The notes beneath the pieces were generated by a model. It was not told the DNA's origin. It was given only the letters and a program-made list of their open reading frames with translations, and ran no database searches. Source: Bryum argenteum (taxonomy: Eukaryota; Streptophyta; Bryopsida; Bryales; Bryaceae). Taken from it: a DNA stretch of 64,000 nt. A program made the position numbers and the translations under genes. This document shows, one piece after another, positions 371 through 49,455 of this stretch (its first letter is position 1; each line of letters begins with the position of its first letter). The DNA lies in the NCBI GenBank assembly GCA_037043015.1, contig CM073321.1:19713001-19777000 (forward strand), in the 5' to 3' direction.

Positions 371-839
371 GGTTCTAAAAAATATCCCGTATCGGTAGAG
401 GTCATTGTGTAGGGGCGATTTCAGGAGATGTTACCCTACGAAACTAAGCCTTTGAGTATTATCTTAGAAGGACACAAAAATCTTGTAGTATTTAATATCA
501 TTAGCTCTCCTTCTAATCCTCTTGTCTTAGGTCTCTCTTGGTTAGAAATGGTCAATCCAAATATAGATTGGAAGATACGAAAACTTACATATCAAACTAT
601 AGCTCCCTATTTCCCTTCACAACATCCTAAGAATAACCTACAGTCTTGCCTTTCCCAAGCCCAAAGTCCTCAGGTCAAAACTCCGCTCATGGTCGGTGCC
701 CGAGCCTTTATGAGGGCTGCCAAGGACGGGAATATGTTTGCAATTTATGCAATTCCGTCATCACAACATATATCAAGGACCAGCTCAAACTACGGTGAGT
801 ATGAAGAATTTTCAGACGAATTCGAGAAGAAGAATGCTG

Positions 840-1490
840 ACACACTTCCTCAACACCGACCCTTTGATTGTGGCATCGAGCTTCAAGAAGATGCACAACC
901 ACCATTTGGCCCGATCTACAGTCTTTCGCAGAACGAGCTTGCTGCATTACTAGAATACCTTGATGAAAATCTTGCAAAGAATTTCATCCGACACTCAAGT
1001 CGCTGCGGAGCTCCTATTCTATTCGTCAAGAAGAAGGGCGGTTCCCTTCGGATGTGCGTCGACTACAGCGGCACGAACAAGGTTACAATCAAGAATCGGT
1101 ATCCATTGCCACTCATCTCGGGACTCCTTGACCAACTCGGTCAAGCAAAGATCTACACCAAGATCGATCTTCGTGGAGCGTACAACCTCGTACGTATCAA
1201 GGAAGGTGACGAGTGGAAGACTGCATTCCGAACGAGGTATGGACATTTCGAATACAATGTTATGCCTTTTGGTCTTACCAACGCGCTGCCATCTTCCAAC
1301 ACTTAATGAGCGGCGTGTTCGAGTTCTGAGCGACTTTGTTGTTTGCTACCTCGACGACATATTGGTGTTCTCCAAGAATGAAGAAGATCGCACCAACCAT
1401 GTCCGATTGGTATTGAAGAAGCTCTGTGACTGCCGGGTTATACGCCAAGTTGGAAAAGTCGTCTTCCATCAACCTCAAGTCGAATTCTAG
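840..1490 (+). pseudogene. reverse transcriptase domain of the gypsy fossil
   Basis: Hallmarks in order: the entry strand ([15 protein letters not shown]), the palm motif [20 protein letters not shown], the NRYPLPLI segment, the first catalytic aspartate in [18 protein letters not shown], and the YLDD box in the segment CYLDDILVFSKNE. This polymerase copies the element's RNA into DNA. All the main motifs are recognisable, so the family call is secure even though the gene is broken. Confidence 0.92.
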
Positions 1491-1859
1491 GCTACATCAT
1501 TTCGGAGAGGGTCTATCCATGGACCCAAAGAAGATTCAAGCTTGATCGTTGATTGGCGGAAACCAACTACCGTTCGAGGCGTACAATGTTTCCTTGGTTT
1601 TGCCAACTTCTACCGAATCTTTATTGAAATTACCCTAAGATTGCTGCTCCGTTGACCCGATTGACTTGCAAGGACAAGCTCGAGTGGTCTCTGAGCGACG
1701 AAGCTTTCGAGGTTTTGAAGAAGGCGTTCTGAGCGCCTATTCTCACACATCACGATTTCGAAGTCGTTCTTCCTAGAAGCGGATGCTTCTGATTTTGCCC
1801 TTGGGCGGTCCTTTCACAATCCGGCGGCGACGGACGCCTCCATCTGTCGCGTTCCGCTC

Positions 1860-2130
1860 GCGAAAATTTTTCTGCTGCTTGAGATCAATTACGAGATTCA
1901 CGACAAGAAGCTTTTAGCTATCGTCGACTCTTTCAAGAATGGCGTCACTTCCTTGAAGGTGCTCAGTATCCCGTCACAGTTCATACCGATCACAAGAACC
2001 TTAAGTATTTCATGTCTGCCAAGGTGCTGAATCGTCGACAAGCCCGTTGGAGTATATCGTTGTCGCGATTCAACTTTGTAATCACACGTACCGTCCCGGC
2101 TCTCAACAAATTCGTTCGATGCGCTTTCTA
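1860..2130 (+). pseudogene. RNase H domain region of the gypsy fossil
   Basis: Between the reverse transcriptase and integrase, plus-strand readings show the gypsy RNase H wording: an [10 protein letters not shown]-like helix, then [19 protein letters not shown], and a terminal TYRPGSQQ. RNase H removes the RNA template during reverse transcription. The region is decayed and the limits are approximate. Confidence 0.75.
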
Positions 2131-2533
2131 GGCGAACATACCTTGCGCCTAAAGAAAGCGTCGACATACGACCAACAGAGGACTACCCTCATCAAACTTG
2201 AGCAACTTCGGCTCAAGACCGTGCGCACCACAATTTCAGTGGATGCATTTTTTCTCGAAGATATCCGAGTAAGTTTACAATCTGACCCTTTGGCCTCGAA
2301 AGTCAAGAGCAATCCTAGCGTCTCCAATGTTGAAGAATCTCCATGTCGGGACTCTCAAGTCTCAGATTCAGAGGTTATAGATTCGGAATCCCCGAATCAA
2401 CCCGACTTCGGTTCGAGCTTCCACGTCGTGTGAAACTCCCCAAGATGATGCAGATCCAAGATTCCAGTTTCGAGATGGGCTACAATATTATCAGGGACTA
2501 CTCTATGTCCCTGAAGGCCCATGCCGACTCCGA

Positions 2534-3290
2534 GTGCTCCAGTCTCGACACGACTTTCCATCGGCAGGACACTTTGGTTACAACAAGACCATGGGTACAT
2601 TATCCAGAGACTTTTGGTGGCCTCAAATGTGGAAAACCGTGAAGGACTATGTCACAACGTGTGACATCTGTTCTAGATCCAAGATCCCTCGTCATCGGCC
2701 GTACGGGTTGCTTCGGCCGTTGCCGATTCCAGAAACCCCATGGACATCCATATCCATGGATTTTATTGTGGACCTTCCAATGTCCAACACTTTTGATTCC
2801 ATCTTCGTTGTTGTGGACCGGCTGACCAAGATGGCTCACTTCATTCCGTGCAACAAGACAGTTACCGGAGAAGAAACAGCAAGACTCTTTGTAGACAATG
2901 TCTACAGACTCCACGGCCTCCCCAACGACATCATTTCCGATCGTGGAACGCAATTCACATCGAAGTTCTGGCAGTCTTTGTTCAAGATTCTCGGCGTGGA
3001 GATCAAGCTATCTTCAGCATACCATCCTCAGACTGACGGACAAACCGAGCGCGTCAATCAAGTGTTGGAGCAGTACTTGCGGTGCACCATCAACTACCAT
3101 CAAGACAATTGGGTGGAGTTGTTGCCGCTCGCCGAGTTTGCCTACAACAACACGTTGCAGGGGTCTACTCAACAGACCCCTTTCTTTGCAAACTACGGTC
3201 ATCATCCCAGGATTGATCAATTCAATCTAAACATTTCCGAGAATCCGGTACCCATGAGATCTTGCTACTCGATTGTCTGATATCCAGAAG
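2534..3290 (+). pseudogene. integrase of the gypsy fossil (HHCC finger plus DDE core)
   Basis: The start carries the HHCC zinc finger: the histidine part reads HFGYNKTMGTLSRDFWWP and the cysteine part CDICSRSK. The catalytic core follows: SMDFIVDLP (first Asp), VVVDRLTKMAHFIP, IISDRGTQFTSKFW (second Asp), and HPQTDGQTERVNQ (catalytic Glu). About 250 residues are open. Integrase inserts the cDNA. The core is the best-preserved part of the element and the part that most resembles fungal/moss Tcn1-type elements. Confidence 0.93.
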
Positions 3291-4254: not shown

Positions 4255-4700
4255 TGATGTCACGGACATGCCATACAGGGTATTATCCACACCCCATGAG
4301 TTTACCGTGATCAGCCCTACTTCTGAAAGATTTCCTAGTTTCCGTATATTTTGCAAGTTCAAGTTTTTTGGAAGGTTCTAGAACCTTCCACTAGTTTCCG
4401 AAAGCTTCCTCAAGCTTCCGTATAGCTCTAGTAGTTTCCGGAAGCTTCCACAAGCTTCCAGATAGTTCTAGTAGTATCCGGAAGCTTCTCTAAGCTTCCG
4501 GAAGGTTCCATAAACTTCCGGAAGGTTCCGCTTGATCTTCCTAGATTCCGGAAGCTCCCACGAGTCTCCGGAAGGTTCCATAGGAGCTTCTAGGACCTTA
4601 CTCCGGAAGTTTCTTCTAGCCTAGTATATATATATGCTTTTTTTAGATTGTATGGTTGTTGTTTTAAAAATGATGAAAATGCCACCATTGATCCATGGGG
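4255..4700 (+). repeat. 3' LTR of the gypsy fossil (right end uncertain)
   Basis: The LTR starts with TGATGTCACGG directly after the polypurine tract. From 4330 to 4610 it is built almost wholly of TTC/GAA words such as TTCCGGAAGCTTCC, then has a TATATATATAT box at 4625-4635. That is the expected order for U3, promoter and R. No second copy is present in the window, so the right boundary cannot be fixed. Confidence 0.7.
4370..4530 (+). promoter_or_regulatory. cluster of heat-shock-element-like sites in the LTR U3
   Basis: Heat-shock factor sites are inverted nGAAn units spaced by two bases. Position 4371-4388 gives four perfect alternating units (GAA-GG-TTC-TA-GAA-CC-TTC), itself the core of a 20-bp palindrome. 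Three-unit sites TTC-CG-GAA-GN-TTC occur at 4436-4448, 4496-4508 and 4516-4528, with further partial ones to 4575. A TATA box lies about 100 bp downstream. Seen: the motifs. Known: HSF binds such arrays, as in the LTR of Arabidopsis ONSEN. Inferred: heat-inducible transcription. Confidence 0.6.
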
Positions 4701-32154: not shown

Positions 32155-35100
32155 TGTCTATACGCACCAATAAAATGGTAGCCTTTGTGCGTGAACCTAC
32201 TTGGCACAAGACATGTCCAACAAACAAAAGCCATTTTTGATAATTAAGCCATGCGTCAATAGGTAAGCAATTCACAAATTTACTTTTAAGATGTTGATAT
32301 GCAAAAATTACTTTCACCTTTATCAAAGATATTGTAACTCAAATTCCACATGAGACTTCTCAAAAATTCTCATTACACAAAATGTAAGCGCACATGATGC
32401 AACTACTCGTCAGATGCAAACGATAAGGCATGCCATATCATCACATACTTATCGCCACAATGGTACAATTAACAACATTTTGCATGTATTGAAAACTTTC
32501 CAATAAATAAATTGATCAACAACATCATGTTAGAACAATCCCGAATCAAGGCAACCAAAATGACAAAATTTGTTGATAGAATGACCTTAACTTTCTATTA
32601 ATTTGACTACAAATTTATCTACTAGGAAAGATGTGGAGCACTTCATTTTGATATTCAATGCTCAAACCACAAATCTTTGACCACTTGCTCAACTTGAATA
32701 TACATTTTTCTCTTCAAGATGTCTAAGTTTGCAAATTGCATGCACTGATCGAATGGCGTTACCCGCAAATTATTGTAGACTATATACGAATTTGGTACAT
32801 TGAATCTTTTGTATGATTCATTAACTCCTTTAACTTTGTTGTGTTAAGCTCGCTCTGATTAAATCCACTTAATTTTGTACCACCTCTCATTTTCTTGCGC
32901 TTTGGCTTTACAACAACACCAGTACAGAACTTCAACATGTCTTTTATGTGGCCAATACAATTTACGTTCTCACTTGATTTTCTTTAAGGGTACAAATGTT
33001 GCTTATTGCACAGGTTTTTAGAGTATTGCACAAGTTGCTTGCTCCAATAGTTCCTCTAATATTGTAGTGGTGGCTCACCACAATGGTTTATTAAAAAGAT
33101 TGGATTTTGTATCCTATTATGGCGACTAATTATTTTGACATGAGAGGTCAATTTGGAACTTTTGAATAAATTTCAAAGTGAATTTCAAAGTTGGCTCACG
33201 TTTGTTTTTTCATCCATTTGTATAATTCTCAAGTCCAGGACAATCCTTATACTTCATGATAAGCAATACATCCTAATATGCTTACTAATTGTTTCAAATA
33301 TTTATGCCTCTCTCTAACAAAGAAGGCAACCGCAACAATACACATCTCTACAACTTGTTTTTGATATAGATAGTATATATCAATTTTATTATATGAACAA
33401 TAACAATTAGAGTACAATTCATAATTGTACGCCAAGTTATTGGCTAATTTTTAGTACCACTTGCAAAATTTCTCCTTGATCATATTTCTACTACATATTG
33501 CTTGGATATTGGCTATAGTCGACCTCTCTAGGTCAACTTAGCCCTTCAGCTTTTCTACTACATTGTTCTTAGTTTTTATGTCTTGAGAACTTTGACCCTC
33601 TTGAGAAATTTGAATGCATCCTTTGATTCTTATCTCAAGTTTGACTAGTAATCTTTCAACCTTGTATTTGCATCTTTATGCGCCTTTATTTCATTTGAAA
33701 TCTTGTAGCTGAAGATATTGCACAGTGCCAACAAGCTCCTTAGTTCTCCTTCATTACGACCTTTGCATTGTTGCTTAACACCTCAATTTGCTCCACTCAA
33801 CCCCATTCATTTGCCCTCAACCATTTTTCCACATCATAATATCTTTCACCACATCAGGAAAATCGTTTGTCTCTTTATTAAGTTTAGAAATGACATGGAC
33901 TCAATTCCGGCATCAAAAGCAAGAATGGTTGACTTTCTCATATCTATGCTTGTATCTTTGGTCGTCAAAATTTGTCTAAATACTTTTGAAGTTAAAAATC
34001 ATTTCTTTCTTCTATAGCTTATTCATTGAGCTACTATTAAGTTTCTCAAGGCCTTCTTGCTCTTTTATTTAACAAATTTTCAACTTCCTCTATAGAGTTA
34101 GTAACGCATAGTGTTCAAACTTGCCTCTTGTATTCTACTTCTTCATTCTCTCCTCTATCTTCTTCGTCTTGTATTGCCACAATATATTCTTAGATTCCTC
34201 TGAACACTAGCATTTGATTCACACATTGACAAATAAGGGAGCATAGAGAAAGAAGCGGGGAAAAGAACATGAATTTAATACTTCAATCAACTAATAAAGA
34301 CCCTATGGAATCATAGATCTTCAAAAACTCATGAAAAATAGTATTGATGTGTTATGATTTCCTTACATCCTTCAAGAATAAGAAATTTGAGAAAGAGGTG
34401 GAATTAGAAATTTGACTAGAGAAGAAATGAGAAATTTGAATAAGATAGAGATAGTGGTCCTAACAAAAAGTTTTTGACCGTTAAATTAGAAGAAAACATT
34501 CTCGCTTGCAAGACAATCATCGTCACTACTCATTGCCTCCGTCGTGAGCAAATGATTGCTCCAACTAATATGGTCGCCCACGGAAGACCCGCTTAACATT
34601 TGTATTCCTAGTTGCATGGGCATAACCGCCACCGCTTTAGTGAGTCTTGAGCACCTATGTGAGACCTATAGTAGCAATCGTGCGATGGTCATCATTATGG
34701 CCACCGTTGGTCTCATGCACACTCTCCTCACTCGCAATGGCCAATTTTTCTTCTACGCGCCTCTATCATTATACATTATTGAGTATCAATTGAAAAGTTG
34801 CCACCTCCTTGCACGACGCTTCAAAAAATGTAGAAGATATCTATACGTAACATCAATAGCTAATGCCACGTAAAGGAGGTTTTTATAGATTGAACATGGT
34901 TTTTTAAGTTATTTCCCAAACAATCAATATAACTATAAATGTTACAAATGTAAAGACATATACAAGGCATATAGTGTAACACCATATTCATTATTTTGAG
35001 AGTATCCTCAATAATGAGAGTATTATTGAGTCCTAGAAGTAATGATAAAAATTCAAATAGTCCGTTAAAAATGGTATAAAGTAGATATAGATGGATGAAT

Positions 35101-35200
35101 AATTGTATACTGTAATGGAATATACATGAATGTATGTTTATTTATAGACATTGTATACACCAATTGACCACGCCAAAGGAAATATGCTCATCCAGATATA
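32155..35200. other. AT-rich interval, nothing recognised
   Basis: About 3 kb with 65-70 percent AT and only short open frames with no domain wording. Short readings such as CIVAVAFFVRERHKYLKQ on the minus strand near 33250-33340 hint at a transposase scrap but are not enough for a call. Confidence 0.45.
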
Positions 35201-36060
35201 AATGTGAGCTCTAGTTACATATGAATGATCCAATGTACAATGGTAAATACAATATTTCTATACCAATAGAACAATACAAAGACGTGTTGAATGGGCTATC
35301 CATGAAGAACCATGCCGATCAATGTCCTCTACATCATATCAAGATCATGTCGTATCACAAGTGCGAACGGCTTCAAATTTCACCAAGGCCTTCCACACTT
35401 CTCGTCCACAATCGTAGCTCGCAGATGGTGACAAACGCAAACTTGAATTTTGACGCCTTTGAAGCTTCATAATCCGTTGCTCCAATGCATCACGAATCGA
35501 GGACAACTAACTGAAATCCATCGCGTGATTGAGTCGGGCGGTGACCTCGCGTAATGGCGGGCGATAGTACGGAAGCGCAAACGCGAGGTATCATCGCACG
35601 GTTCTTCAGCCGGGAAGGAGAACATGTAGAGTGTGGTCGCCATCGCCTAAAGGAGGACTATCCACAACACCATCATCGATTGCCATTGTCGAGTAGTCCA
35701 TAGTTGATTGTGTAGGAGCTTCGAGTACATTGTATGGCCCATTCCACTCGCAAAATTGTGTAATTGACGTAGTCCAAATCGAATCAGCAGTAAGGAGCGC
35801 AACGGAAATCAAAATCATTGTCCGAAACCGGATGCACTGGACACCGGATACGAATTCATTTTAGGGGAATCATCAACAAGGATGATATGCACATGACATA
35901 CCCAAATCAACGACTCGAGTTAAATCAATGCCGAGAACTAGCACCATCAAATACTACGATAAAATAAAAGGTCGGACACAAGCACGCTCCGAAATGAAAT
36001 CACCGAGATGAAACATTATTATTGAAATCATGTATTATAATCTACACAATATACATGACA
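35201..36060. other. low-signal interval with short open frames
   Basis: A minus-strand frame at 35606-35818 (MILISVALLTADSIWTTSIT...) and a plus-strand frame at 35221-35472 are open, but neither has a recognised motif or convincing splice sites. Confidence 0.35.
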
Positions 36061-36102
36061 AATTTGACTCTTGTCTAGTGAGACCAATCTTGGTTAACTA
36101 GC

Positions 36103-36375
36103 TTAATCAAGCACTAGCTTCCTAGAAGCCTCTACGGCGTTAATAAGCTCTTCGTATTCTGAAGTATCGAGCTCTTCAAAGAGCATTCTACGCCCAATGT
36201 TGTCTTCCCTACGGAAAGACAACAAGCCCTGACCGCGGCTTTGATGTAGACGTTGAATCCATGGGAGGAGCTCGTCAACTAAGAATCTGTCAGATACATC
36301 ATGCTCTGACCACGAGACTGGCAGTACAACATTCTCTGGTTCATTCACGACGCTTCGCACGGATATCGCCGACAT
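36103..36375 (-). CDS. hypothetical 90-residue frame
   Basis: Starts with ATG (MSAISVRSVVNEPENVVLPV), then WSEHDVSDRFLVDELLPWIQ, FRREDNIGRRMLFEEL and SEYEELINAVEASRKLVLD. It looks like a soluble helical protein with many acidic/basic pairs. It lies about 290 bp downstream of the spliced gene at 36664-37305 on the same strand and could be a further exon, but no in-frame junction was found. Family unknown. Confidence 0.35.
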   Translation of the reverse strand: MSAISVRSVVNEPENVVLPVSWSEHDVSDRFLVDELLPWIQRLHQSRGQGLLSFRREDNIGRRMLFEELDTSEYEELINAVEASRKLVLD

Positions 36376-36663
36376 GTCATTATGTCATTATGATTGTGTC
36401 ATGCTCATTAAACTTTGAGTTTAGACCATTAAAAAGCATATCTAGTGGTTTGAGGTAGAGATCCTTATTAGTCCCCTTCAACTTGAAGTTGGACAACTTA
36501 TTCCATGTCCACGAACCTCGACAACCTCACATGAGTTCTCGCCCCTAAGTAAGGCACGGGATGGCACACCCGAACAAGTTGTCACATATGGACTTCGTGG
36601 TTGCATGAACCATCGAACTCCATACAGAGAGACGATGCAACTTCACTCAACCGACAAAGAAAA

Positions 36664-37305
36664 TCATGGCGTATGGGCCGAACGAAAACGGCCTTGGGAC
36701 CAATCGGAGAGGGTAGGACAGAGGAATGTGCACTCGACCATGTTGTAAGCTTGGTCCTTTGGCATAAATCTCTTCCCTGCGCATACGAGAATACCGCTCA
36801 AGTCCGTGATGACATTGAGCCACTTGCATGGCACCCTCGAAGGAATAGAACGAGGGATATCCTCCACGGCTGCAACTACCGGACTGTGCGAATGACTCAT
36901 CCCCTGTTAGAAGGAGGGCAGACAAATGTGTAGACAGTTAAGTACTGCACTACCACATTTTGAGACTAACCATTGCTATAACACTAAGAAATCCCAAATC
37001 CCAACAATGCAAGCACACTGAACTCATAAGGAAAGGATTTAATGAAAATGAGATTTTCGTACGGGAAGAGCTTACCGGCGTCTCTGATTGAGTTTCAGCT
37101 GTTTGTGAATCTCGTACAGCGGTCGAGGATGGAAGAGGAATGTGAACCTCGAGGAAGATTGAATCCGGAATGTGACCTTCATTTTGATCATCTTGCACCG
37201 TGTTACTTGGCTCACCATGAAACGGACTCATAGGACTAGTGTCTTCTATAGGGGGGACCTCATGAGACAAACAAACTTTCGGAACACTTCGCAAATCAAT
37301 AGAAC
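36664..37305 (-). CDS. spliced minus-strand gene of unknown function, last two exons
   Basis: An internal exon, 37305-37076, follows a pyrimidine-rich acceptor (TTTTCTCCCTCTGATTTCTACGCAG). It reads LRSVPKVCLSHEVPPIEDTS, then EPSNTVQDDQNEGHIPDSIF and AVRDSQTAETQSETP, and ends at GTAAGC. The 170-bp intron ends in GTCTGCCCTCCTTCTAACAG. The last exon, 36903-36664, continues in phase 0: GMSHSHSPVVAAVEDIPRSI, SGILVCAGKRFMPKDQAYNM, ECTFLCPTLSDWSQGRFRSA, HTP, stop. Both junctions keep the frame and both acceptors are strong, which is unlikely by chance. Upstream exons should lie above 37.33 kb. I do not recognise the protein. Confidence 0.45.
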
Positions 37306-37519
37306 CTGCGTAGAAATCAGAGGGAGAAAATATGTAAGAAAATATGATTGTATTCCAAACTCTGCGTTAAAAAATAAGCGTCATATACAAAAGGTATTTA
37401 CACGATGAACACTAAGTCCAATCTAACAAAACCGCCCTAGGGGAATATGTATACTAGACTATCAACAACTCTCGAAGGTTTTCTACATGCAATCTTCCAT
37501 TAATCGAAGGAGAAATTCA

Positions 37520-38550
37520 AATCGAGTCGAGTTAATGAAAGACTAGATCGTGGAGTTCAACCCGATTCGTAACGATCCGATCGAGAGTCTCATCATGTGT
37601 CCCTATCTCGCTTCTTCCTCATCCACGGTCTTCCATTCCAAATTGATCGGGTCCGAGGGTATGGAGCGACTTGATAGGTCTTGATCCCTACAAACTACTT
37701 GATCGATGTTGCCCGTAGGTGAGGGGAGTCGTAGTTGACTCAAAAGGCGTGCCTTGAGGGAACGTCGAGGAGATGCATGTCGATCCGCACCGCCGCCGGA
37801 AGACTAAGTAGCCCCGTGGGTCGGGCGAGGTTTACTATGACTTGATCAAGCGAGAGGAGCCGCTTTGCATTGAGGTGCGAAATTGCTTAGACTACTACCC
37901 TGTGTATTCTCGCAAAGGCCTGCACATCATTACGCTCCATCGTTGCTTATCCTCCCCGTTTTTGGAGTCCGCGCTCTCGCGCTTCTTGAGCAAGCATTGC
38001 TTCAACTCGGCCCTTTGTCACGCCCGCGCTCCTCCCGCATTCGACGAGCTCCTTCCATTAGAGCGCCAACGGATAGTGACTCCCTTCTCGTTCTTCTCCG
38101 AGGCGATGGCGTGGAAGCCGGAAGAGAGCTATCCGAGAAGCCCTGTTTTGGGGATGAGGAAGATGAGAAGATGAGCCTCGTCCAGTTAGGGGCGTTATCG
38201 GGAGTTGAGATCCGTAGGCCTCAACATCTTGGTTAGGATCGTCATCGCTGTCACTTGACCCGATTACTATCGGTCTTGGGTCATTCACGCCAAGCGGTAA
38301 CTCTATTGCCCCCGCTTTCTTTCCTCTTGCCTTCCCCTTCTCGGCCTTCATGGGGGTGGTGGTGCTTCTAGTCTCTCCCTAGATCCGGATGCCTCACCGA
38401 TCGAGTACCCACCTTCGAAATCTCGACGATCCAAGTTGAAGACCTACATCAAAAGTTTGACAACTTCTTCTTCGCCGCCGAGCCGATCGTAATTCATCAA
38501 CAACACTCCGCGAGTAGACATAGCAGAGATGATAACGTCAATCATTTGTA
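37520..38550 (-). pseudogene. gene-like minus-strand block 1, family unknown
   Basis: Higher GC than its surroundings. The clearest piece, 38351-38058, reads MKAEKGKARGKKAGAIELPL then GVNDPRPIVIGSSDSDDDPN, i.e. a basic start followed by an acidic serine patch typical of nuclear proteins. Lower down come ARAQRAELKQCLL-like and KKREPGLQKRG readings in other frames. No domain recognised. It is bounded on the right by the first palindrome cluster. Confidence 0.35.
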
Positions 38551-38552
38551 CG

Positions 38553-38890
38553 CTTAACTCAATCGAGTTGAGACGGAGTCGGGCGCGTGAAAGCACTACA
38601 ATACTATTTTCTTGTACGCATTCAACTCGAGTAAAGTTGAATACCAAATATAAACTTTAAGCGCCCCAAAGATCACATTCAACTCAAGTCGTTAAATGTA
38701 AGAGCGCATGTAAGAACAAGGTTTCGTAGCAGATTTAATAATCCATTCAACTCGAGTCGAGTTGAATAGAATCCAAGTTAGTGTAAATGATCCTCGGACA
38801 CTGGCGCGACCGAACTCGACTCCAGTTAAATACAACGAGCTTAGAAAGCAACAGAGTCAAGACGAACTATTCAACTCAAATCTAGTTGAA
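38553..38890. repeat. palindrome cluster 1 (six copies)
   Basis: Copies start at 38553, 38621, 38678, 38746, 38811 and 38870 (spacing 57-68 bp). The copy at 38746 is perfect: half-site TTCAACTCGA, one central base, then its reverse complement. The others carry one to several changes. Intervening sequence is not repeated. Confidence 0.9.
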
Positions 38891-38899
38891 ATATACAGA

Positions 38900-40285
38900 T
38901 GTCCTTACCCAGGCCGCATAGTAGAGCTTCCCGCCTCCAAAAACACTGAGGATCGCATCCCCATTCTTGCAGAAGAGATCAAGCGGCTTCAGGTAGAACT
39001 CCATCTTCAATTCCGTACTATAAATACGGTACTCGAGTCCCTTGTATCTCCCGCAGATGTTGAATCGTGGAGTGCCTGAGGCCTCGGAAGAACTTGGGGA
39101 GATTCAAAATCTTCAACTTGTGAGATTTTCGAAACAAGAAGAGGATCCGACATGATCCTTGGCCTTCTTGGTCGATGTGGTTTGGTCCTCAAGTCGCTCA
39201 TATGGAGCCGAACATATTCCGCATACTCTATCTTGTAGTTGTTTCCGAACTCGCAACTATCGAGGTGATCCTTGATCTTCACCCAAAGATCCCTACTTCC
39301 GCATCCAAACCCAAACGGGGATTTTAATTACCACCGGGTCCGCGATAGACTTTAGGACTTGAGGACGTTGTTAAAGTACGAGCCTCGATGACGAGCTCGA
39401 TGAAGCCGATACCTCCCGTGGCTCCGAGGAGATTACGGAAGTCCATTATTCCGACCTTGATTCTCTTAGAAGATAATTTGTTCCAAGAGTCATTGTGCCA
39501 TTCCCCAACACATCGCCCTCGAGGTCGTAGGCCCCCAAGTTTGTCTCGCCCCCTTGTAGTCGAAACTTCCCCTTGTTGGCGAGGACGACCAAAACTCACG
39601 ATACGGCGAGAGTTGCTCGACGGACTTGTTCTTGTTGCCGGAGAATTTTGCCAACAGAAAGAAGGACTCCCGAGATTCATGATCAAAACGTTCAGCCAGC
39701 TGGCGTTATCCCAAATCGGTCTTGAATCTCTTCCAGCCTCTCCTTCGTGAAGTCCCCACTCCTATCGAACAAAGATTAAGTCACGGCGCATGCTATGAAT
39801 CACGCGCTTCACGATGGTCTTTCTTCAGCGCTCCAGCCAGCCGTAAGAGTTGTAGCAATCTACAAACACACTCTTCATCCGCTTCAATGTGACTTTGGGG
39901 TATGCAGATGCGCGCTTTTGGTTCGGTCCTGCTCAACATATGCTCGGCTAATCGCTTGAGTTGGGGGTAGCTTGTGTTGCCGATCTATTTGAAAACTCCC
40001 CGGTGATGTTTCGATGCTCAGCTTCCACTTCCCCAACTCCTTCATCTTCCTTCATGTGTCGGGTCGATGAGCTCCCCTTGGGATGCGGGCCGCGATAAGC
40101 TCAAGCCGTACATGGTAGACATCATTTGAGCACATGATGATTTTAAGCTCATTCTAGATGTTGAGCTTTTCTCCGCCGCCTTGCTTCCTCAGAATCGCTT
40201 ATTGGGCGCCCTTAACGTCAATGAGAGCAAATCTAAGCCCCGATAGCCTTCCATGAACTTGTATCAACCGAGTACGATATTGAGT
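38900..40285 (-). pseudogene. gene-like minus-strand block 2, family unknown
   Basis: Coding-like readings in changing frames include KFMEGYRGL, NELKIIMCSNDVYHVRLELI, MKELGKWKLSIETSPGSFQI, GGETNLGAYDLEGDVLGNGT, MTLGTNYLLRE, KIKDHLDSCEFGNNYKIEYA and KGLEYRIYSTELKMEFYLKP. The amino-acid make-up looks like real protein on this strand, but no domain is recognised and the frame shifts often. It is bounded on both sides by the palindromes. Confidence 0.35.
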
Positions 40286-40291
40286 TAGATG

Positions 40292-40390
40292 TTTAACTTG
40301 AGTCGAGTTGAAATAGGTTACAAAGAAGAATGGAATCAAAATATCATCGTTAGTAGTGTAGGGATACTATTCAACTCGAATCGAGTTGAA
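40292..40390. repeat. palindrome pair 2
   Basis: Two copies, at 40292-40312 (left half TTTAACTTGA) and 40370-40390 (perfect, central A), spaced 78 bp. They sit between two gene-like blocks. Confidence 0.9.
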
Positions 40391-40394
40391 TGGA

Positions 40395-41865
40395 GTTGCA
40401 CGACGCTGAATGCGTCCTTTGTCGTTTTCTTGCCCTTGAGGCCTCTCGTGTGACACCTCCCAACCTCGCAGCCTCCCTTTGATTCTCCGGTCTACCGAGG
40501 CTTTCCCCGCGCCCGATGATGTTTGTCGCCTACTGGATTTGTATTCATGAAGTGGTTGACCCGTTGTAGAACGCAGAGATTCTCCGAATGATGGACTTAT
40601 CTTCTGTTCCATACTACAAAGCAGCCCCTGTGCCTTCAAAGCGCCCCCGATCTTTACATCCACATCTAGCCTGCTTTGCAGAATCGCTGGAGACCTTGAC
40701 GCAGTTGTTGTCCATTAACCATGTAGAACTCCCCGCCTTGTATCTCCTCCCAAGATTGGGGTTTTACGAGCTTATTCTTCGGGAAGACGCGTAGGGTGTT
40801 CTTCTTCTCCTTATCGCACATCTCAATAAGGAAATGCATATCGCGCCTTACTTTTTCCCCGCTCGAGGTTCCGGTTGTTCAGCCCGCAGGGGGGTAAAGA
40901 AACGCTCCATTGGAATCTCGTAAGTTGACATCTATGCCAAGATTTAAGAGTCTTGGCAAAGTGCCCTATAGTTCTTGAAGGCATTCATAAACTCCTTGTA
41001 ATCGACAACTTTCTACATTGTCAATGGGTACTTCCACAAGGCCGACACTAAGCTCGCCTGTTCAATCTCAGTGGGATCGGCCAGGGTCGACTTCTTCGTC
41101 GTGACCGATTTTATTTTCTTTCGTGCCGCCCCCACCGTGTTTGGGACGGATTCGCCTTGCGCCTCCTTGTTCCCGCTGCCTCGTGAGTCCGATATAGGAT
41201 GGACTTGTGGTCGCTGATGCGCATGCTTATTTCCCCGTGTCGACGAAGGGGCGTAATTTGATCTTTTGCTGCGCCTTTGCCTTGAAGTTCACCATGGCAG
41301 TTGATTTGAGTGATCGGAGACAAGGGGCGAGAATACTTGGGGGTCAGCCGTTACCCGAGTTCGCTGTGAATCGAAACTCGCAAATGTGTTGCTCGACATT
41401 CTTCGCCAAGGGTTCGAATCGAGTATTTCTTATACTCGACATGAGTCCAAATGTCTAATTCGATCTTCATCGTGTGGATCATGTAAGTGAACCCGTAGTC
41501 ATGGTCCAAAACCGTGTCTTGATTGGGGTCGCCCACGATGCACGCCATGCCAATCCAAAGGCGCTGATGGACGATTTACATCGATGATGTTCTCCTCCAA
41601 GTTGACAGAAGGTTGCACTCGCTTCCTCAGACTTGGTGACAACAGCCACTTGTTCTGTGGTGCGGTGTGAGGAGCATACCCACCATTCGACATCCGTAGG
41701 CTCACAGGCACCCACATGTCGCCAAATATATCCGGGTCGGCGACTTCGTTGTTCCTTCAGGAACATAGGGCTTGAGGAATGCTGAGAGCCTCTCCTTCGA
41801 ATTGGTTTCTTCTGATGAGACAGAGGGGATTAATGGGTATTTATCCATACGTATTGCAAGGATGC
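40395..41865 (-). pseudogene. gene-like minus-strand block 3, family unknown
   Basis: Readings include MWVPVSLRMSNGGYAPHTAP, then RKRVQPSVNLEENIIDVNRP, ACIVGDPNQDTVLDHDYGFT, MIHTMKIELDIWTHVEYKKY, then GTKENKIGHDEEVDPG, RDMHFLIEMCDKEKKNTLRV and FPKNKLVKPQSWEEIQGGEF with YMVNGQQLRQGLQRF. These look like one or two former proteins of about 400 residues. No family recognised. The block ends where the dense palindrome array begins. Confidence 0.4.
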
Positions 41866-41868
41866 TAA

Positions 41869-42962
41869 TTCAACTCGAGTCGAGCTGAAGAGCATTCTAC
41901 CCCGTCTCTGCTCGTCACGATTAACGTTAGCAAGGAAGTTGGATTCAACTCGATTCGAGTTGAATGTTTCCTTGATGGCGTTTTGTGGTCTCTACATACA
42001 GAGCTTAGATACTTTCAATTCGACTGTTGACATACGGAGGCTATATTAGAATCTTTGTCACGTTGTAGTTACTGGAATTTTATTCAACTCGAGTCGAGTT
42101 GAATGTTAAGTTTCTTTCTCGAATCGCTTCAACAATCGATTTAATGTCTATTCTTTTAACTCGATTCGAGTTAAAATGTTTTCATAGTTGCTCACGTAAG
42201 CTGGTATTTTGATTCAACTCGAATCGAGTTGAATATGTTTATCGTGAGTTAATTCACTCTAACTCGAGTCGAGCTTAAATGTTTTGGTCTTTCTAAACCG
42301 CCGAACCACTCTACCCAGCTTAGTCCGCTTCAACTCGACTCGAGTTGAATAATAATTATTGACCTCACGATGGAGGTAAATCGATTCAACTCGATTCGAG
42401 TTGAATCGGTCCACTAAGACTAATCAAGTTGATAAATATTATTACTACGCTTGTCCATTTTAACTCGAGTCGAGTTATATGTTATGTTTCTTTTTATGCT
42501 ACTTTTATGACTTTAATTTGTTAACCCGCTTCAACTCAACTCGAGTTGAATTATTGTTTTAGGTAGTCACTCATGCCGCTTAATCTGATTTAACTTGAGT
42601 CGAGTTGAATATGTATGTGAGACTTACTCGATCGTATTGACATTATTATAATGCAAGTTCACTTTAACTCGATTCGAGTTAAATTTTATTTTGCTTTTTT
42701 AATTACTCCTGACAACTTTACAGTAGTCGGGTCCGCTTCAACTCGACTCGAGTTGAATTAATATTAGAGTTGCTAATGTAGGGGCGCTATTTCAATTCAA
42801 CTCGAGTCGAGTTGAATTGTTCATATGTCCTAATTTTATCCTATTCGAAATATATGAGTTAAACGTCGCTACTTATGATGCTACTTTAAGTATTAAGAAA
42901 TTCAACTCGGGTCTAGTTGAATTCTCTCATCGTGTATGAGATTCAACTACGGTCTAGTTGAA
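41869..42962. repeat. dense palindrome array 3 (about 17 copies)
   Basis: Starts: 41869, 41944, 42016 (weak), 42083, 42155, 42213, 42258, 42329, 42385, 42459, 42530, 42589, 42663, 42737, 42796, 42901, 42942. The consensus half-site is TTCAACTCGA, then one free base, then the reverse complement. Nine copies in this array are perfect. Central bases include A, C, G and T. Spacing falls mostly at 56-59 or 71-75 bp. In three variants (42155, 42459, 42663) the half-site is TTTAACTCGA and the opposite arm carries the matching change. Spacers are AT-rich and diverged. Not a CRISPR, transposon end or known satellite that I recognise. Confidence 0.95.
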
Positions 42963-45225
42963 TTGCAAACAATTCTCGCTTAAAACAACCTCAAATTGAA
43001 CGAGTAAAAATAGTGTTTACTCATCCAATAATAGATCTCGCTTTCTTCTACTATGTGAATACCGCACGCAATTCAACAAGGCTCAACTTTGTCCCCGATC
43101 CTAAAGGAACGAAATTGCATTCAAATTTGATCGTGGTCGAATATGATCAATATTGCATTAAAACAAAATTCGCCGTAATCCAAAAAAGAGAACAACATCA
43201 ACAATCCATGCGTAAAAGTCCTCAATTCACTACATGTGAGACCATTTACAAATCGATCATGGTAAGAAAAACAAAATCCAGTTAACATCACCAAAATTGG
43301 CAAACAATATCAAAGATCTAGGCTCGTGTGCTTTGATCAAATGTGCCGTGATCACCGCCGTATTCGTAGAGCCTATTTATACAAGACCAAGTTGACCGAT
43401 ATACTTCGATAAAAGCAGTATAGGAGATCCAAATGTAACGCCACCGAAATCATATTGCTAAACTTTGAGACATTGACTAATTAGCTAAACACTCATGCAA
43501 GAGTGGCTCGCATAAGTATTTCATGTATGGATCAAACGTGATTGCGCATCAAAGACAAGAAACAACCGTAATATCTCTTGAAACGAAGAGAAATATGCCA
43601 CAAGATTTGTAAAACTTCTTAAGACAACACAAAAAGCAAGAGGCAAAGACTCAACATCATTGATGCAAAACGTCCAGAGAAATAATTGCACTGAAGGAAG
43701 ACCAACACAAAAAGCAACGGGCATCATCAACTCAACCACATTCTGAGCACGCCCTGACAGATGGCAATGGACTTCGTCTTCTTCTAATTGCAAGCTAGAG
43801 AATATAGGTGAGTAGCATACCGTGGCTGAATCGGAACTATCTGATCAAACCAAAATCACGATTACCTAGCATACCGTGGCTGAATGGAAACTGGACGCCC
43901 ATGGCCATCTACATACATACCAGTATTCATGAACTTCAATCTGATGTAATACTCAGAATTACTACATGGCTGATGAAAAAGCGAGTAGATAAAGGACGGA
44001 CTATATAAACAAGAACGAATACACGACCTTTGAGGCCAGGAGATAGCTACTCTCGAGGCCCCTAATCTTGCCCTAATCTTTGTCACCCCGGTTCGATCGA
44101 ATGAGCTCCGAGAGTAGTTGTGCAGAATTGAAGCTAGTCGTGATGAAAGATCATTTTTTGGGCTTCTCGCTAGACGAGACTCTAAACAGATCACGGTGAA
44201 AAACCCGCCCAAAAAAAAAAACCTCAAAATCCTAGCCTCGATTCGGATTGCAGTCGCAAATCGATCGCATGATCGTGAATTGCTCCATATTGAACAATTT
44301 AAAAAAAAAACCTAAAGCTTACCAAAGAATCTTGTAACTCGTCATCCGCCGCATTTGAAGCTCTCCGCCCGTACAACATTTGAAGCACTCCGCCGCAGCC
44401 GCCGCCGCGTGAACGACAACCTTCACCGCTTGACCGCGCTCCTCTTCGCAGTCGACTTCCGCCACGACCGCTCCTTCTTGCGCCTCCGTCCCAAATTCCT
44501 CCTCGGCGCAAAACCCCAAAAACTCTAAACCTATCTACAAAGAGTGCGCCGAATGAAATGGCGGCAAAGCAAACACGAGCTCAACACCACCACTAAACGA
44601 CAAAACCCTAGAACCTCAAAAGCCCCGCAAAACGACAACAGAGGCGACAGCGCAAAAAGACAAAAAAAAGAGAAGAGGATGCAAACTCCGCGGATGGCGA
44701 GGGAGCAAAAGCACATGGAGCAAATGCATGCGCGCAAAGAAGCAAAAGCACACACGCAGTAAGATAGGGGAGGAATGGCTAGTGGGTGGAGGAGATGGGC
44801 AAGCCTCGTAATGGCGGCGGTGGTGGGACGTTGATTCCTCTTCACTTAAAAAGTATTCCATGTCCATGATCATCTCCGCATGGGCATGGTCATGCACATG
44901 GTCACACACATACATGGCCATGTACGCATTCTCCAACAAGTGTTGCAACACACTGCTTTTTTCACTTAAAACATATCCCATGGCCTGTTTTTTAGAATGG
45001 TGGTGTTGGCATGATAATCATCACATCTCCATGACATTTTTTGCATCATGGAAGGTGTTCCAGCTTACCTTCATACACCAAGCATTTTCTAAATATAAAG
45101 AGGCATCCATTGCCATGTGTCTACCAAAATTGCCATCATGCTTAAAAATCTTGGAAAAGGGTACCTTCTTAATGCGATCACTTTTTCTCTTGATGGTACA
45201 CATTTCTTAGAAAAGTTGTGCAAAT
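42963..45225. other. interval with no secure gene; CATG-rich words at 44.85-44.98 kb
   Basis: Several open frames at 44.3-44.85 kb are low-complexity (Ala/Cys/Leu-rich or Lys/Gln-rich) and lack domains. 44856-44925 is rich in CCATG/CATGG words (CCATGTCCATGATCATC, CATGGTCATGCACATGG). TTCACTTAAAA is doubled at 44841 and 44960. Confidence 0.4.
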
Positions 45226-46965
45226 AAGTCTTGTTTGTCAAACATATCGTTTTTCGTTGTTGTTAGGACCTTTTTATCAAACTTTTGTGGATGTAAGTGT
45301 TGTTTGAGGATTGTGCACTATGACAAGGAGTTATGTATCAAATGATATATGACACATGATAGTTGGTATGCGTAAAGCGGGCATGTCGGTGAGTGAAATT
45401 GGAAACATTGTAGGAAGGCCAAAATCGACTATTTCAAGGATTCTCAAGCGATTTAGAATTAGTGGCTCAGATTGCCAACAAGTAGATCCGTAGGGTTTAA
45501 AAACATGAGCGATCGAGATAGAGAAGGCTCCATAGAGATCTTAGTAGTAATCGTCGCGCCTCCTCTTGCAGAATTGGCGCAAAGAATGTGACATCTTCCG
45601 AGGCATGTCAACTTTACGTAAAGAGCTTTATGAGCTTGGTATTGTCAGCTGCATTGGCAGTCAAGAAACCATTCTTTGAGTGACATACACAAGGCAAAGA
45701 GGTTGGCTTTTTTGCAAAGGGGCACTTGCATTGGACGATTGACGATTGGAGAATGTGATTTGGACCGATTAGTCATCCTTTGAAGTTGGAAAACCATCAC
45801 GCCAAATTCGTCCGCGAAAAAGCATATGAACGCTTACAACTACAATTGCTTAGCACCTACATTCAAATCCGGAAGGACTTCAATTATGGTATGGGTGCTA
45901 TCACCGCTCATCTTAGTCTTATTTGGTGTTAATTCCTCCTAATAGACGACCGCCAAAGACTTTGTAGAGATAGTATCTCAAAGAGCATTAGAGCATTATT
46001 ATTGGCACCATGACCACCATGAGCACCTTATTTTAATGGAGGATGGTGCTCCAAAGACATGGTAGTAATATACAAAAAGATTGGAGACAAGAACTTGATT
46101 GAAAAAGCTTGAATGGCCACCAAATTCTCCCGACCTTAATCCTATAGAGAATGTCCGGAAGCAAGTTAAAGATCAAGTGCAACAGAGAAATAGACCACGA
46201 AACAAAGACGAAATGTGACATCACTAATCTGCTTAGGAGGATATACCTCAAGAAAGCATCAAGAAGTTGATTTCAACAATGCTAACCCGGATGAAAGTCG
46301 TAATAGCACTCAAGGTGGTAGCACTCGATGGTAGTAGGTGTTCCATTTCATCGTAGAATATTTGTTAAGTGAGAAGACATATTGTAAACTTCATATCATA
46401 TTAGGCTTCTATACTACTATAGCTTTGTAATGATACCTTATTTGACTTTATTTGATCAAATTTTGATTTAATATATGAGTTTGATTTCCTTAGCCTAGAA
46501 TATGAATGAATGGAAACTATGAAAATACTTTAGAGCCACATAGAGGAGAATTTTACCTACATAGTATGCATCTTTGTAATACCAAGAATGCGAACAATGA
46601 TATATCCTATAGATTGGTGCAATCAAATTTTAAAAATCATCATATATATTTCTCAGCTTAACTTTTTTGAAATTAAGTGAAAAAGATAAAATAATTCATC
46701 AAAAATAGAGATTTTGTTTTTTAACATTGACATTTTATGAACACGTGAAGGGTCCATAACACAAAAGATTTAATAGAATAAATTTGATAAAATCCTCCCA
46801 TTTTGAAAATGAATTAGAGAATTTCAAGAGTTCACAAAATGGTTGCAAGACTTGTTGAGGGCATCATACATGACCATGCCCATGCCCATGCCCATGGATG
46901 GCAAACTTTTACTTTAGTGATTATTTGTTGTAAGTTTGTTACTTTTAAGTATATTTACTAATTTT
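45226..46965 (+). repeat. left arm of a second inverted repeat (IR2)
   Basis: Matched in reverse complement by 47690-49455 with only scattered substitutions and small indels, clearly closer than the IR1 arms. It starts with AAGTCTTGTTTGTCAAAC and ends near AAGTATATTTACTAATT. Contains a Tc1-like transposase gene and its AT-rich 3' flank. Confidence 0.92.
45330..46345 (+). pseudogene. Tc1-like transposase, left copy, decayed
   Basis: The N-terminal helix-turn-helix reads GMSVSEIGNIVGRPKSTISR then ILKRF. First catalytic region near 45756-45820: VIWTD...SSFEVGKPSRQIR. Second Asp near 46035: ILMEDGAP-like. Third, a glutamate, near 46112-46155: LEWPPNSPDLNPIENV, then QVKDQVQ. This is the DD34E layout of Tc1-like elements. 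The MEDGAP and PPNSPDLNPIENVWK wording is closest, from memory, to fungal Tc1 elements. Several frame changes and stops make it non-functional. It points towards the centre of IR2. Confidence 0.85.
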
Positions 46966-47689
46966 TCTACTAATTCTTGGCTAAGTTTTGACTACGATTA
47001 TGTCTAAGTTCGCTCAAATTTGACTAAGTAAATGTGTAGGTTTATAATGGAATTTTCTGACTAAATGGTAATTAAATTTAGTACTCTAAAGTACTTAAAT
47101 TGTTAGTTTTGAACACGTAATTTAGAGATTACATTGTTCACCGCTTTTTGTAATAAAAAGTCCTGTCATGTTTAGTTTCTATCCCCACAAGACATGCATG
47201 AAAACCATTTTAGATTAAAAATAATCTGAAATAAGGCTCTTCACTTTCTAATTGATGTAATTTTGTGATCATCGAGTAAAACAAATATACATAAATTTAT
47301 AAATAGAAGATATCTTTGAGAAACATTCAGATGCTACGGCCATGCATCACACATACCATGGCCATACCTCACACATACCAATAGAATGAGAGTCAATTTA
47401 GTTATTTTGAACCTATATAACGATGAAATATAAACTTAATTATCAACACTCAATTGATATGTAAATGTTGATCATGGACAATCGTTATAACTTCTATACT
47501 ATAATATAACAATAAAATGTCCGATAATATAGCTATTATAATATATTATTAATGTATTATTATAACGTAATGTGTTGTTAAAAACAAAACACATGACAAA
47601 AGGAACTAGAGTAAATTTAGAGTAAATTACCCTTGCTTTTTAATTAGTATTCAACTTTATCTTACCATTAATATAATCAAATTAAGATT
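46966..47689. other. AT-rich spacer of IR2
   Basis: 724 bp between the two arms, without coding signal. Contains CATGGCCATG words at 47338-47375. Similar words lie just inside both arms (46866-46900 and 47757-47790). Confidence 0.6.
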
Positions 47690-49455
47690 TAATTAGTAAA
47701 TATACTTAAAAGTAACAAACTTTACAACAAATAATCACTAAAGTAAAAAGTTTGCCATCCCATGGCACGTGGCATGGTGATGGTCATGTGCGCACTTCCT
47801 CCAATGTCTTTAACCATTTTGTGAACTCAAATTCTCTAATTCATTTTCAAAATGGGAGGATTTATCAAATTTATTCTATTAAATCTTTGGCGTTATGGAC
47901 CTCTTCAATGTGTTCATAAAATGTCAATGTTAAAAAACAAAATCTCTATTTTTGATGAATTATTTTATCTTTTTCACTTAATTTCAAAAAAGTTAACTGA
48001 GAAATATATATGATGATTTTTTAAAAATTTGATTGCACCAATCTATAGGATATATCATTGTTCACATTCTCGTATTACAAAGATGCATACTATGTAGGCA
48101 AATTCTCCTCTACGCGGCTCTAAAGTATTTTCATGGGGCCCATTCATTCATATTCTAGGCTAAGGAAATCAAACTCATATATTAAATCAAAATTTGATCA
48201 AATAAAAGTCAAATAAGGTATCATTACAAAGCTATAGTAGTATAGAAGCCTCAATATGATATGAAGTTTACAATAATATGTCTTACTCACTAACAAATAT
48301 TCTAATAAGTAGAAATGGAACACCTACTACCATCGTGAGTGCTACCACCTTGAGTCGCTATTACAAACCTTTCATCCCGGGTTGGCATTGTTGAAATCAA
48401 CTTCTCTGATGCTTTCTTGAGGTATATCCTCCTAAGCCAGATCGGGATCGATGTCCACATTTCTGTCTTTGCTTTCGTGGCTCTATTTCTCTCGCTTGCA
48501 CTTCGATCTTTAACTTGCTTCCGCAGACATTCTCTATAGGATTAAGGTCAGAGAATTTGGTGGCCATTCAAGCTTTTTCAATCCAAGTTGTCGTCTCCAA
48601 TCTTTTTGTATATTACTACCATGTACTCGGAGCACCATCCTCCATTAAAATAAGGTGCTCATAGCGGTCATGGTGCCTAATAATAACGCCTAATGCTCTT
48701 TGGAGATACTAGTCTCTACAAAGTTCGCAAAGGCGCCTATTAGGAGGAATTAACACCAAATAAGACTAAGATGAGCCAAATGATAGCACCCATACCATAA
48801 TTGTCCTTCCGATTTGAATGTAGGTGCTAAGAATTGTAGTTGTGAAGCGTTCATATGCTTTTCGCGTATTACCTAATTTGGCGTGATGGTTTCCAACTTC
48901 AAAGGATGACTAATTCGGCCCAAATCACATTACTCCAACCGTCAATCGTCCAATGCAAGTGCCCTTGCAAAAGCCAACCTCTTTCGCTTGTATGTCACTC
49001 AAGAATGGTTTTGCTTCACCGCAATGCTGTTTGGTAATGCAAGCTCATAAAGCTCTTTACGTAAAGTTGACATGCTCCGGAAGATGTCACATTCTCGCAT
49101 TCTCGCAAGAGAGGCACGACGATTACTACTAAGATCTCTATGGAGCCTTCTCCTATCTCGATCACTCATGTTTTTCAGCCTCTGGATCTACTTGTTGGCA
49201 ATACAGAGCCACTAATTTAAATCGCTTGAGAATCCTTTGAAATAGCCGATTTTGGCCTTCCTACAATGTTTCCAATTTCACTCACCGACATGCCGCCTTT
49301 CTGCATACCAACTATCATGTGTCATATATCATTTGATACATAACCCTTGCCATGGTGCAATAACTAAACAACACTTACATCCACAAAAGCTTGATAAAAA
49401 AAGGTCCTAACAACAACACAGTAAAAACGATATAGCTGTTTGACAAACAAGACTT
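47690..49455 (-). repeat. right arm of IR2, cut by the scaffold gap
   Basis: Reverse complement of 45226-46965. The last bases before the gap (AAACAAGACTT) still match the left arm, so the true outer boundary of the repeat is hidden in the gap. Confidence 0.92.
48310..49345 (-). pseudogene. Tc1-like transposase, right copy, decayed
   Basis: Mirror copy of the left gene, read from 49345 down: the GMSVSEIGNIVGRPKS-type start, CDLG...SFEV region, LMEDGAP near 48640, LGLKKLEWPPNS near 48575 and the NPIEN-type Glu block near 48540, with NMPTRDERFV-type residues at the end. It is broken at different places from the left copy, so the two have decayed separately for some time. Tail-to-tail with the left copy. 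Confidence 0.85.

Follow-up and report, generated by a model that had tools for sequence, protein, structure and literature searches.

Transposon proteins that counteract silencing through short motifs, with the motifs differing from family to family, are known to us from one case, the VANDAL elements and their VANC proteins. VANDAL and MULE transposons are characterized by a MURA-type transposase, a VANC-type protein that binds the motif and removes DNA methylation, and a 9-10-bp target-site duplication. In the En/Spm (CACTA) elements, the repeated TnpA sites are occupied by a protein of the element itself, which regulates the promoter as well, and CACTA elements end in CACTA or CACTG and are flanked by 2-3-bp duplications. 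Arrays of palindromes bound by a dimer are also found in viral genomes, where the hr regions of baculoviruses and the oriP of EBV act as origins and enhancers; the hr palindromes are about 30 bp long, are bound by an IE1 dimer, and lie near several promoters. Ginger transposons generate 4-bp duplications, and Maverick/Polinton elements carry capsid and polymerase genes, with a 6-bp duplication in the Polintons. VANC proteins bind short motifs that recur in the noncoding parts of their own family and strip silencing marks; the motifs of related VANCs are different (PMC5735166, PMC10398659).

The element described here was encountered in a 64-kb window of the Bryum argenteum genome (the window being the whole stretch of DNA that was analysed). 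Like En/Spm it has repeated sites and, by analogy, a candidate element-encoded binder, but it ends in AACACC, makes 4-bp duplications, and carries its sites before genes rather than in subterminal positions. With the baculovirus hr regions it shares palindrome arrays near several promoters, whereas here the arrays belong to an integrated transposon with terminal inverted repeats (TIRs) and target-site duplications, and no viral gene was found in the ORFs scanned. The 4-bp duplication sets it apart from VANDAL/MULE elements with their 9-10 bp, and the element ORFs scanned gave no Pfam match to a MURA-type transposase or a VANC-type protein. Polintons have 6 bp, and no capsid or polymerase gene, as would mark a Maverick/Polinton or giant-virus insertion, was found in the same ORFs. 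Ginger transposons, the subject of PMC2836005, share the duplication length, but no integrase core domain was found in the element ORFs scanned, which hold a DUF7869 gene instead. The Arabidopsis VANDALs (PMC5735166, PMC10398659) are likewise multigene DNA transposons with short motifs, partly in tandem units, in their noncoding parts, and with a motif that differs between related families. Their motifs are 8-9 bp long, in contrast to the odd palindromes of 19-27 bp found here, and the main text of the 2017 VANDAL paper does not contain the stem 'palindrom' (PMC5735166). At most by analogy does the element resemble VANDAL/VANC anti-silencing, and it stands outside the VANDAL family. No publication describing this element or its palindromes was found in the literature searched, which does not imply absence in print, and no use of the name DUF7869 was found there.

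A 17-kb transposon with terminal inverted repeats

The original prediction was of about 17 palindromes with unrelated spacers at 41869-42962, and of about 25 copies, 11 of them perfect, across the locus. Scanning the window for TTCAACTCGANTCGAGTTGAA at up to 4 mismatches yields 22 sites, 9 of them exact, with 16 sites (7 exact) in the array and none outside 37500-42962. This far exceeds the chance expectation of about zero and bears out the array: 20 first-order random versions of the window gave a mean of 0 sites at the same threshold, and 200 arm-shuffled palindromes gave a mean of 0.04 and a maximum of 2. The sites at 42155 and 42663 are perfect palindromes of the variant TTTAACTCGATTCGAGTTAAA, and together with the nine exact sites they would make up the 11 perfect copies. 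Among 213 sites the free centre base of the odd dyad is A, C, G or T at frequencies of.16,.36,.32 and.16, and the palindrome spacing shows no clear helical phase. The description of the spacers as unrelated does not hold in the middle of the array, where spacers 3 and 6 units apart reach 68-69% identity and reveal a period of about 204 bp, or three palindromes, that is absent at the ends. Averaged over the array, identity is 51% and 53% at 3 and 6 units and 43% between neighbours, with a shuffled-spacer control at a mean of 45% (97.5th percentile, 63%).

The palindrome occurs well beyond this locus, with 875 exact copies of TTCAACTCGANTCGAGTTGAA genome-wide (258.8 Mb, 25 contigs); the sequence reversed without complementing has none. 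Nine clusters on contig C1, taken from 50 of the 875 exact sites, all lie in copies of an element of about 17 kb. Each aligns over kilobases with several others, and eight align with the copy in the window; the ninth, L012, consists only of the arm with the DUF7869 gene, which is missing from the window. Copies at 8.16 and 8.48 Mb are 96-98% identical in long pieces. A satellite or microsatellite, once raised as an alternative, does not describe these sites, which are interspersed between the genes of a bounded element.

One sharp edge of the element was located by comparing three copies and the other by comparing two. Both edges carry the same 26-bp inverted repeat, AACACCATATTCATTATTTTGAGAGT, which is exact in copies A and B and diverged in the third, is found exactly at 95 places genome-wide, and is present 96 times on one strand and 97 times on the other when up to 3 mismatches are allowed. 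All 22 copies read at both ends are flanked by a perfect 4-bp target-site duplication; they comprise the two defining copies and 20 pairs of ends picked by distance (18 spanning 16.6-17.8 kb and two of 21.6 and 25.1 kb), and the duplications have no fixed sequence (20/20 pairs). Because inverted ends and duplications of fixed length accompany 22 of 22 copies, the element is a TIR DNA transposon, with recent insertions. The palindromes are internal, gene-proximal parts of it. Contig C1, on which the window lies and which makes up 17% of the genome, holds 68 of the 95 listed exact terminal repeats, together with most of the matches listed for gene 1, gene 2 and the phosphatase. C1 is possibly a sex chromosome, or it may be rich in repeats for another reason.

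The features of the window copy are collected in Table 1. TGTA at 34974-34977 occupies the place where a target-site duplication would lie. The DUF7869 arm was not found in this copy, nor was a second end within 8 mismatches in the window beyond 47693, and 44926-46866 is unmatched by the relative L015 in blastn comparisons. The window copy is older than the recently inserted copies, because its genes contain stops (eight in the best window match of the gene 4 remnant), one end is present at 34978, and the other arm was not found. The suggestion that the locus is the relic of a mobile palindromic element was therefore right as to a mobile-element relic, but the mobile unit is the multigene transposon, with the palindromes inside it.

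Table 1. Features of the element copy in the 64-kb window
Feature	Position	Strand	Basis or remark
26-bp terminal inverted repeat, exact, phosphatase-side end	34978..35003	+	95 exact places genome-wide
Decayed, truncated, reversed copy of the ~17-kb element	34978..47693	-	blastn to other copies
Gene 4 remnant (NLI-interacting-factor-like phosphatase)	36106..37384	-	alignment; PF03031 in copy A
Single palindrome between genes 3 and 4	37516..37536	.	motif scan
Gene 3 remnant (sub-threshold Saf4/Yju2-like match)	37546..38507	-	alignment
Palindrome cluster between genes 2 and 3	38621..38890	.	3 sites at <=4 mismatches, 1 more at 5
Gene 2 remnant (faint DNA-methyltransferase-like C-terminus), limits approximate	38874..40265	-	alignment
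Palindrome pair between genes 1 and 2	40292..40390	.	motif scan
Gene 1 remnant (candidate palindrome-binding protein), limits approximate	40374..41717	-	alignment
Main array upstream of gene 1	41869..42962	.	16 sites (7 exact) at <=4 mismatches; in part as ~204-bp units of three
Noncoding centre of the element (in pieces)	42981..47693	-	blastn to L015

Elsewhere in the window, domains of a reverse transcriptase and an integrase, of the kind found in LTR retrotransposons, are encoded at 413-3277, and no tRNA genes were found. An even 22-bp palindrome, TGGAAGGTTCTAGAACCTTCCA, which we take to resemble a heat-shock-element repeat, recurs exactly at 388 and 6260 of L029 and at 4369 of the window, where it is near a retrotransposon.

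Gene content of the element

Copy A begins with one end, followed by the DUF7869 gene on the minus strand, 9 palindromes, and a noncoding centre with repeats of about 220 bp; it continues with 13 palindromes, gene 1, 2 palindromes, gene 2, 5 palindromes, gene 3, 1 palindrome, gene 4, and the other end. Genes 1-4 point in the direction opposite to the DUF7869 gene, giving a divergent layout. Of its 30 palindromes, none is found 3' of the outer gene on either side or in the flanks read, and the first ~3.7 kb and the last ~2.9 kb of the copy are empty of them. Nine gene starts, chosen from the three families treated below and defined by the first ATG of the open frame, all have a palindrome close upstream, the nearest one ending at a distance of 16-152 bp. 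For the long DUF7869 frame of L007 the first ATG is upstream of a palindrome, and the true start there is uncertain.

Several copies have gene 2 frames of 495 aa without stops, and the phosphatase part of gene 4 has frames of 291 aa. Mean pairwise dN/dS among the copies compared is 0.36-0.61 for the DUF7869 gene, genes 1-3 and the initial portion of gene 4, with most pairs below 1 and single pairs ranging from 0.07 to 1.24; values are 0.38 to 0.81 for the phosphatase part, where defined, and 0.34 to 0.99 for the window copy. The C-terminal part of gene 4 in copy A is an NLI-interacting-factor-like phosphatase (PF03031, E 2.3e-15). Genes 1-3 gave no Pfam hit that passed the cut-off, and no known DNA-binding domain was found in their scanned frames. 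A gene 1 profile searched against the PDB returned four chains of caspase-9 (E 0.41-0.42), which we regard as chance hits. For gene 2 as an N4/N6 DNA methyltransferase, hhalign gave a probability of 9% with E. coli YhdJ and six phage methylases and 5% with four of these, the aligned stretch having been picked by eye as what we take to be motifs X-I. The C-terminal frames of gene 2 had no Pfam match at E 10 and no PDB match, and the quality of its structure model (pLDDT 37) is too low for the model to be informative.

The probable transposase is the DUF7869 protein. Its conserved acidic motifs (DxMD, Q.DN...(D/E)NKN and GHTH(D/E)DID) and the predicted order of strands and helices would suit an RNase H-like transposase. 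The predicted structure is weak (mean pLDDT 47); Foldseek found no match to it at E 0.001, the best hit, at E 0.041, being an unrelated protein, with Argonautes among the weak matches. Sequence and profile searches of the PDB gave no match, and no relatives were found in IMG/VR or phage records. The DUF7869 family is very large in this genome: a first look gave 1811 candidates, of which 150 were scored, with frames of up to 1125 aa. At L017-L020 no recurrent palindrome was seen in the 3.6 kb read.

A common layout with respelled palindromes in related families

A second odd palindrome, TATCGTCGNNNCGACGATA, was first met in flanking pieces and has 324 exact copies genome-wide. At L024 an array of it is followed by open frames related to gene 1 (26-39% identity in pieces) and gene 2 (25-31%), with one site before gene 2 and a cluster at the end of gene 2. 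A second array lies directly upstream of an N-terminal piece of a DUF7869 gene (L026 9892 to L007 509); the gene of this family is broken into eight pieces, four at 42-57% and four at 32-36% identity. Copy B (C1:8477874) is apparently inserted in a family 2 element, as family 2 arrays lie to its left and further to its right. We infer that L024 and the second array belong to one element, split by copy B.

A third group emerged from a protein search with gene 2 (34-37% identity). At the three loci compared, on C8, C3 and C7, a DUF7869 match lies 12-14 kb off and the divergent layout is kept. The location of the family 3 array was predicted to be upstream of gene 1 before the 1.9 kb at C8:15338400-15340300 were read, and this stretch holds 16 sites of CAGTTTAGCTCGANTCGAGCTAAACTG, 14 of them exact; the array stops 107 bp short of the ATG of gene 1. 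There are 1323 exact copies of CAGTTTAGCTCGANTCGAGCTAAACTG genome-wide, including single sites just before gene 2 at C1:1315614 and C1:2328927. Families 3 and 1 share 24% identity in gene 1 (E 1e-15) and 43% in the phosphatase; gene 1 of families 2 and 3 shows no significant likeness (E 0.42), so that family 2 is tied to the others through family 1. A further gene 1 group, at 38-45% identity to family 3 and with many long open frames, is found at C10:13431212, C6:509856, C5:9768193, C4:21334091 and elsewhere. All three palindromes have TCG-NNN-CGA in common, families 1 and 3 share the wider CTCGANTCGAG, and the outer arms differ. Related families preserve the arrangement of genes and arrays while the palindrome itself is respelled, which suggests that each element family has private lock-and-key control.

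Candidate roles of the palindromes

In 12 of 15 comparisons the palindromes have diverged less than their spacers. Measured against L006, divergence is 4-11% in palindromes but 19-32% in spacers for seven of eight copies, and the remaining one, L008, is nearly identical; with L013 as reference the contrast holds in five of seven, with little or none in L014 (0.095 vs 0.094) and L009 (0.124 vs 0.140). Reference palindromes were chosen at up to 4 mismatches, which somewhat favours low divergence. The palindromes are likely to be operators for an element-encoded dimeric DNA-binding protein, which would give a family-specific control like that of VANC, because long dyads with a free centre base are kept while spacers drift, and because the sites precede genes and are rewritten between sister families whose accessory genes diverge. 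A binding array for a dimeric protein is the best supported of the roles first guessed, as a candidate operator judged from sequence.

Alternatively, the palindromes might be transposase binding sites that serve transposition rather than gene control, similar to the subterminal TnpA sites of En/Spm. The arrays do flank a long central noncoding region, and a DUF7869 gene is seen with all three families. This explanation is nonetheless unlikely, given that none of the sites in copy A is near the ends, that single sites or small clusters precede genes 2, 3 and 4, and that the DUF7869 proteins of families 1 and 2 are on the whole more alike (32-57%) than genes 1-2 (25-39%), with overlapping ranges, yet the motif has changed outside its core. 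Recruitment of a host transcription factor dimer, through operator sites captured from the host, is slightly less likely again. An odd-centred palindrome in a promoter position would fit many dimeric factors, and a host protein could account for the core common to all three motifs and the wider one of families 1 and 3; against it, the outer arms differ between families residing in the same genome, sites of host factors are usually shorter than 19-27 bp, and the exact 21-bp motif lies inside the element in all nine clusters read.

Perfect dyads with arms of 10-15 bp could also form hairpins or cruciforms, acting as RNA or single-strand DNA structures such as terminators or recombination or replication features; the original prediction had proposed hairpins or cruciforms as a recombination or replication feature. 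This role is improbable, since compensating changes are scarce. The arms of 213 sites vary mostly independently: arm positions 1, 2 and 4-7 have no double changes, and positions 8 (3 vs 1.8 expected) and 9 (4 vs 3.3) are near expectation. Double changes are in excess at position 3 (25 vs 13.7 expected, 20 of them complementary) and position 10 (6 vs 1.4, 3 complementary), an excess due in part to a variant type of site, carrying both changes, that is found repeatedly in the arrays. At every position single-arm changes outnumber complementary double changes, the reverse of what a hairpin would need. General terminators are excluded because copy A has no palindromes 3' of its outer genes. A replicating or viral element with arrays as origins and enhancers would have the same design of dimer-bound palindrome arrays as hr and oriP, and the element here is multigenic. 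Such an origin is very improbable in view of the TIRs with fixed 4-bp duplications, the failure to find genes for virion proteins or a polymerase in the element ORFs scanned, and the absence of the exact palindrome from IMG/VR. The original impression that nothing viral is recognizable agrees with these searches; for capsids, one family was searched for genome-wide (Capsid_N, 0 matches, in a search without a positive control).

If the palindromes are operators, a dimeric protein encoded by the element would bind them, with gene 1 as the first candidate, because it adjoins a large array in all three families, and gene 2 as the second. The protein would occupy the arrays at the divergent promoters of the DUF7869 gene and gene 1, together with the smaller clusters before genes 2-4. 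Occupancy would maintain expression of the genes of the element, most likely through counteraction of host silencing of the kind that VANC exerts for VANDAL elements in Arabidopsis, and if protein and palindrome change together, each family would switch on only its own copies.

A broader proposal, made more tentatively than the operator role, is that these elements form a new superfamily of giant multigene plant transposons, with DUF7869 and 4-bp duplications, in which lock-and-key anti-silencing evolved independently. Such elements would rewrite a palindromic operator and a matching element-encoded reader within the same gene order, with several versions residing in one genome, and might possess a methyltransferase-derived partner in gene 2. 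DUF7869 also gains a probable function from the element. With three families in one genome, whose genes are homologous and whose palindromes can each be read, there is a ready series for the study of protein and site coevolution, and the same series allows one to ask how selfish DNA avoids activating its relatives.
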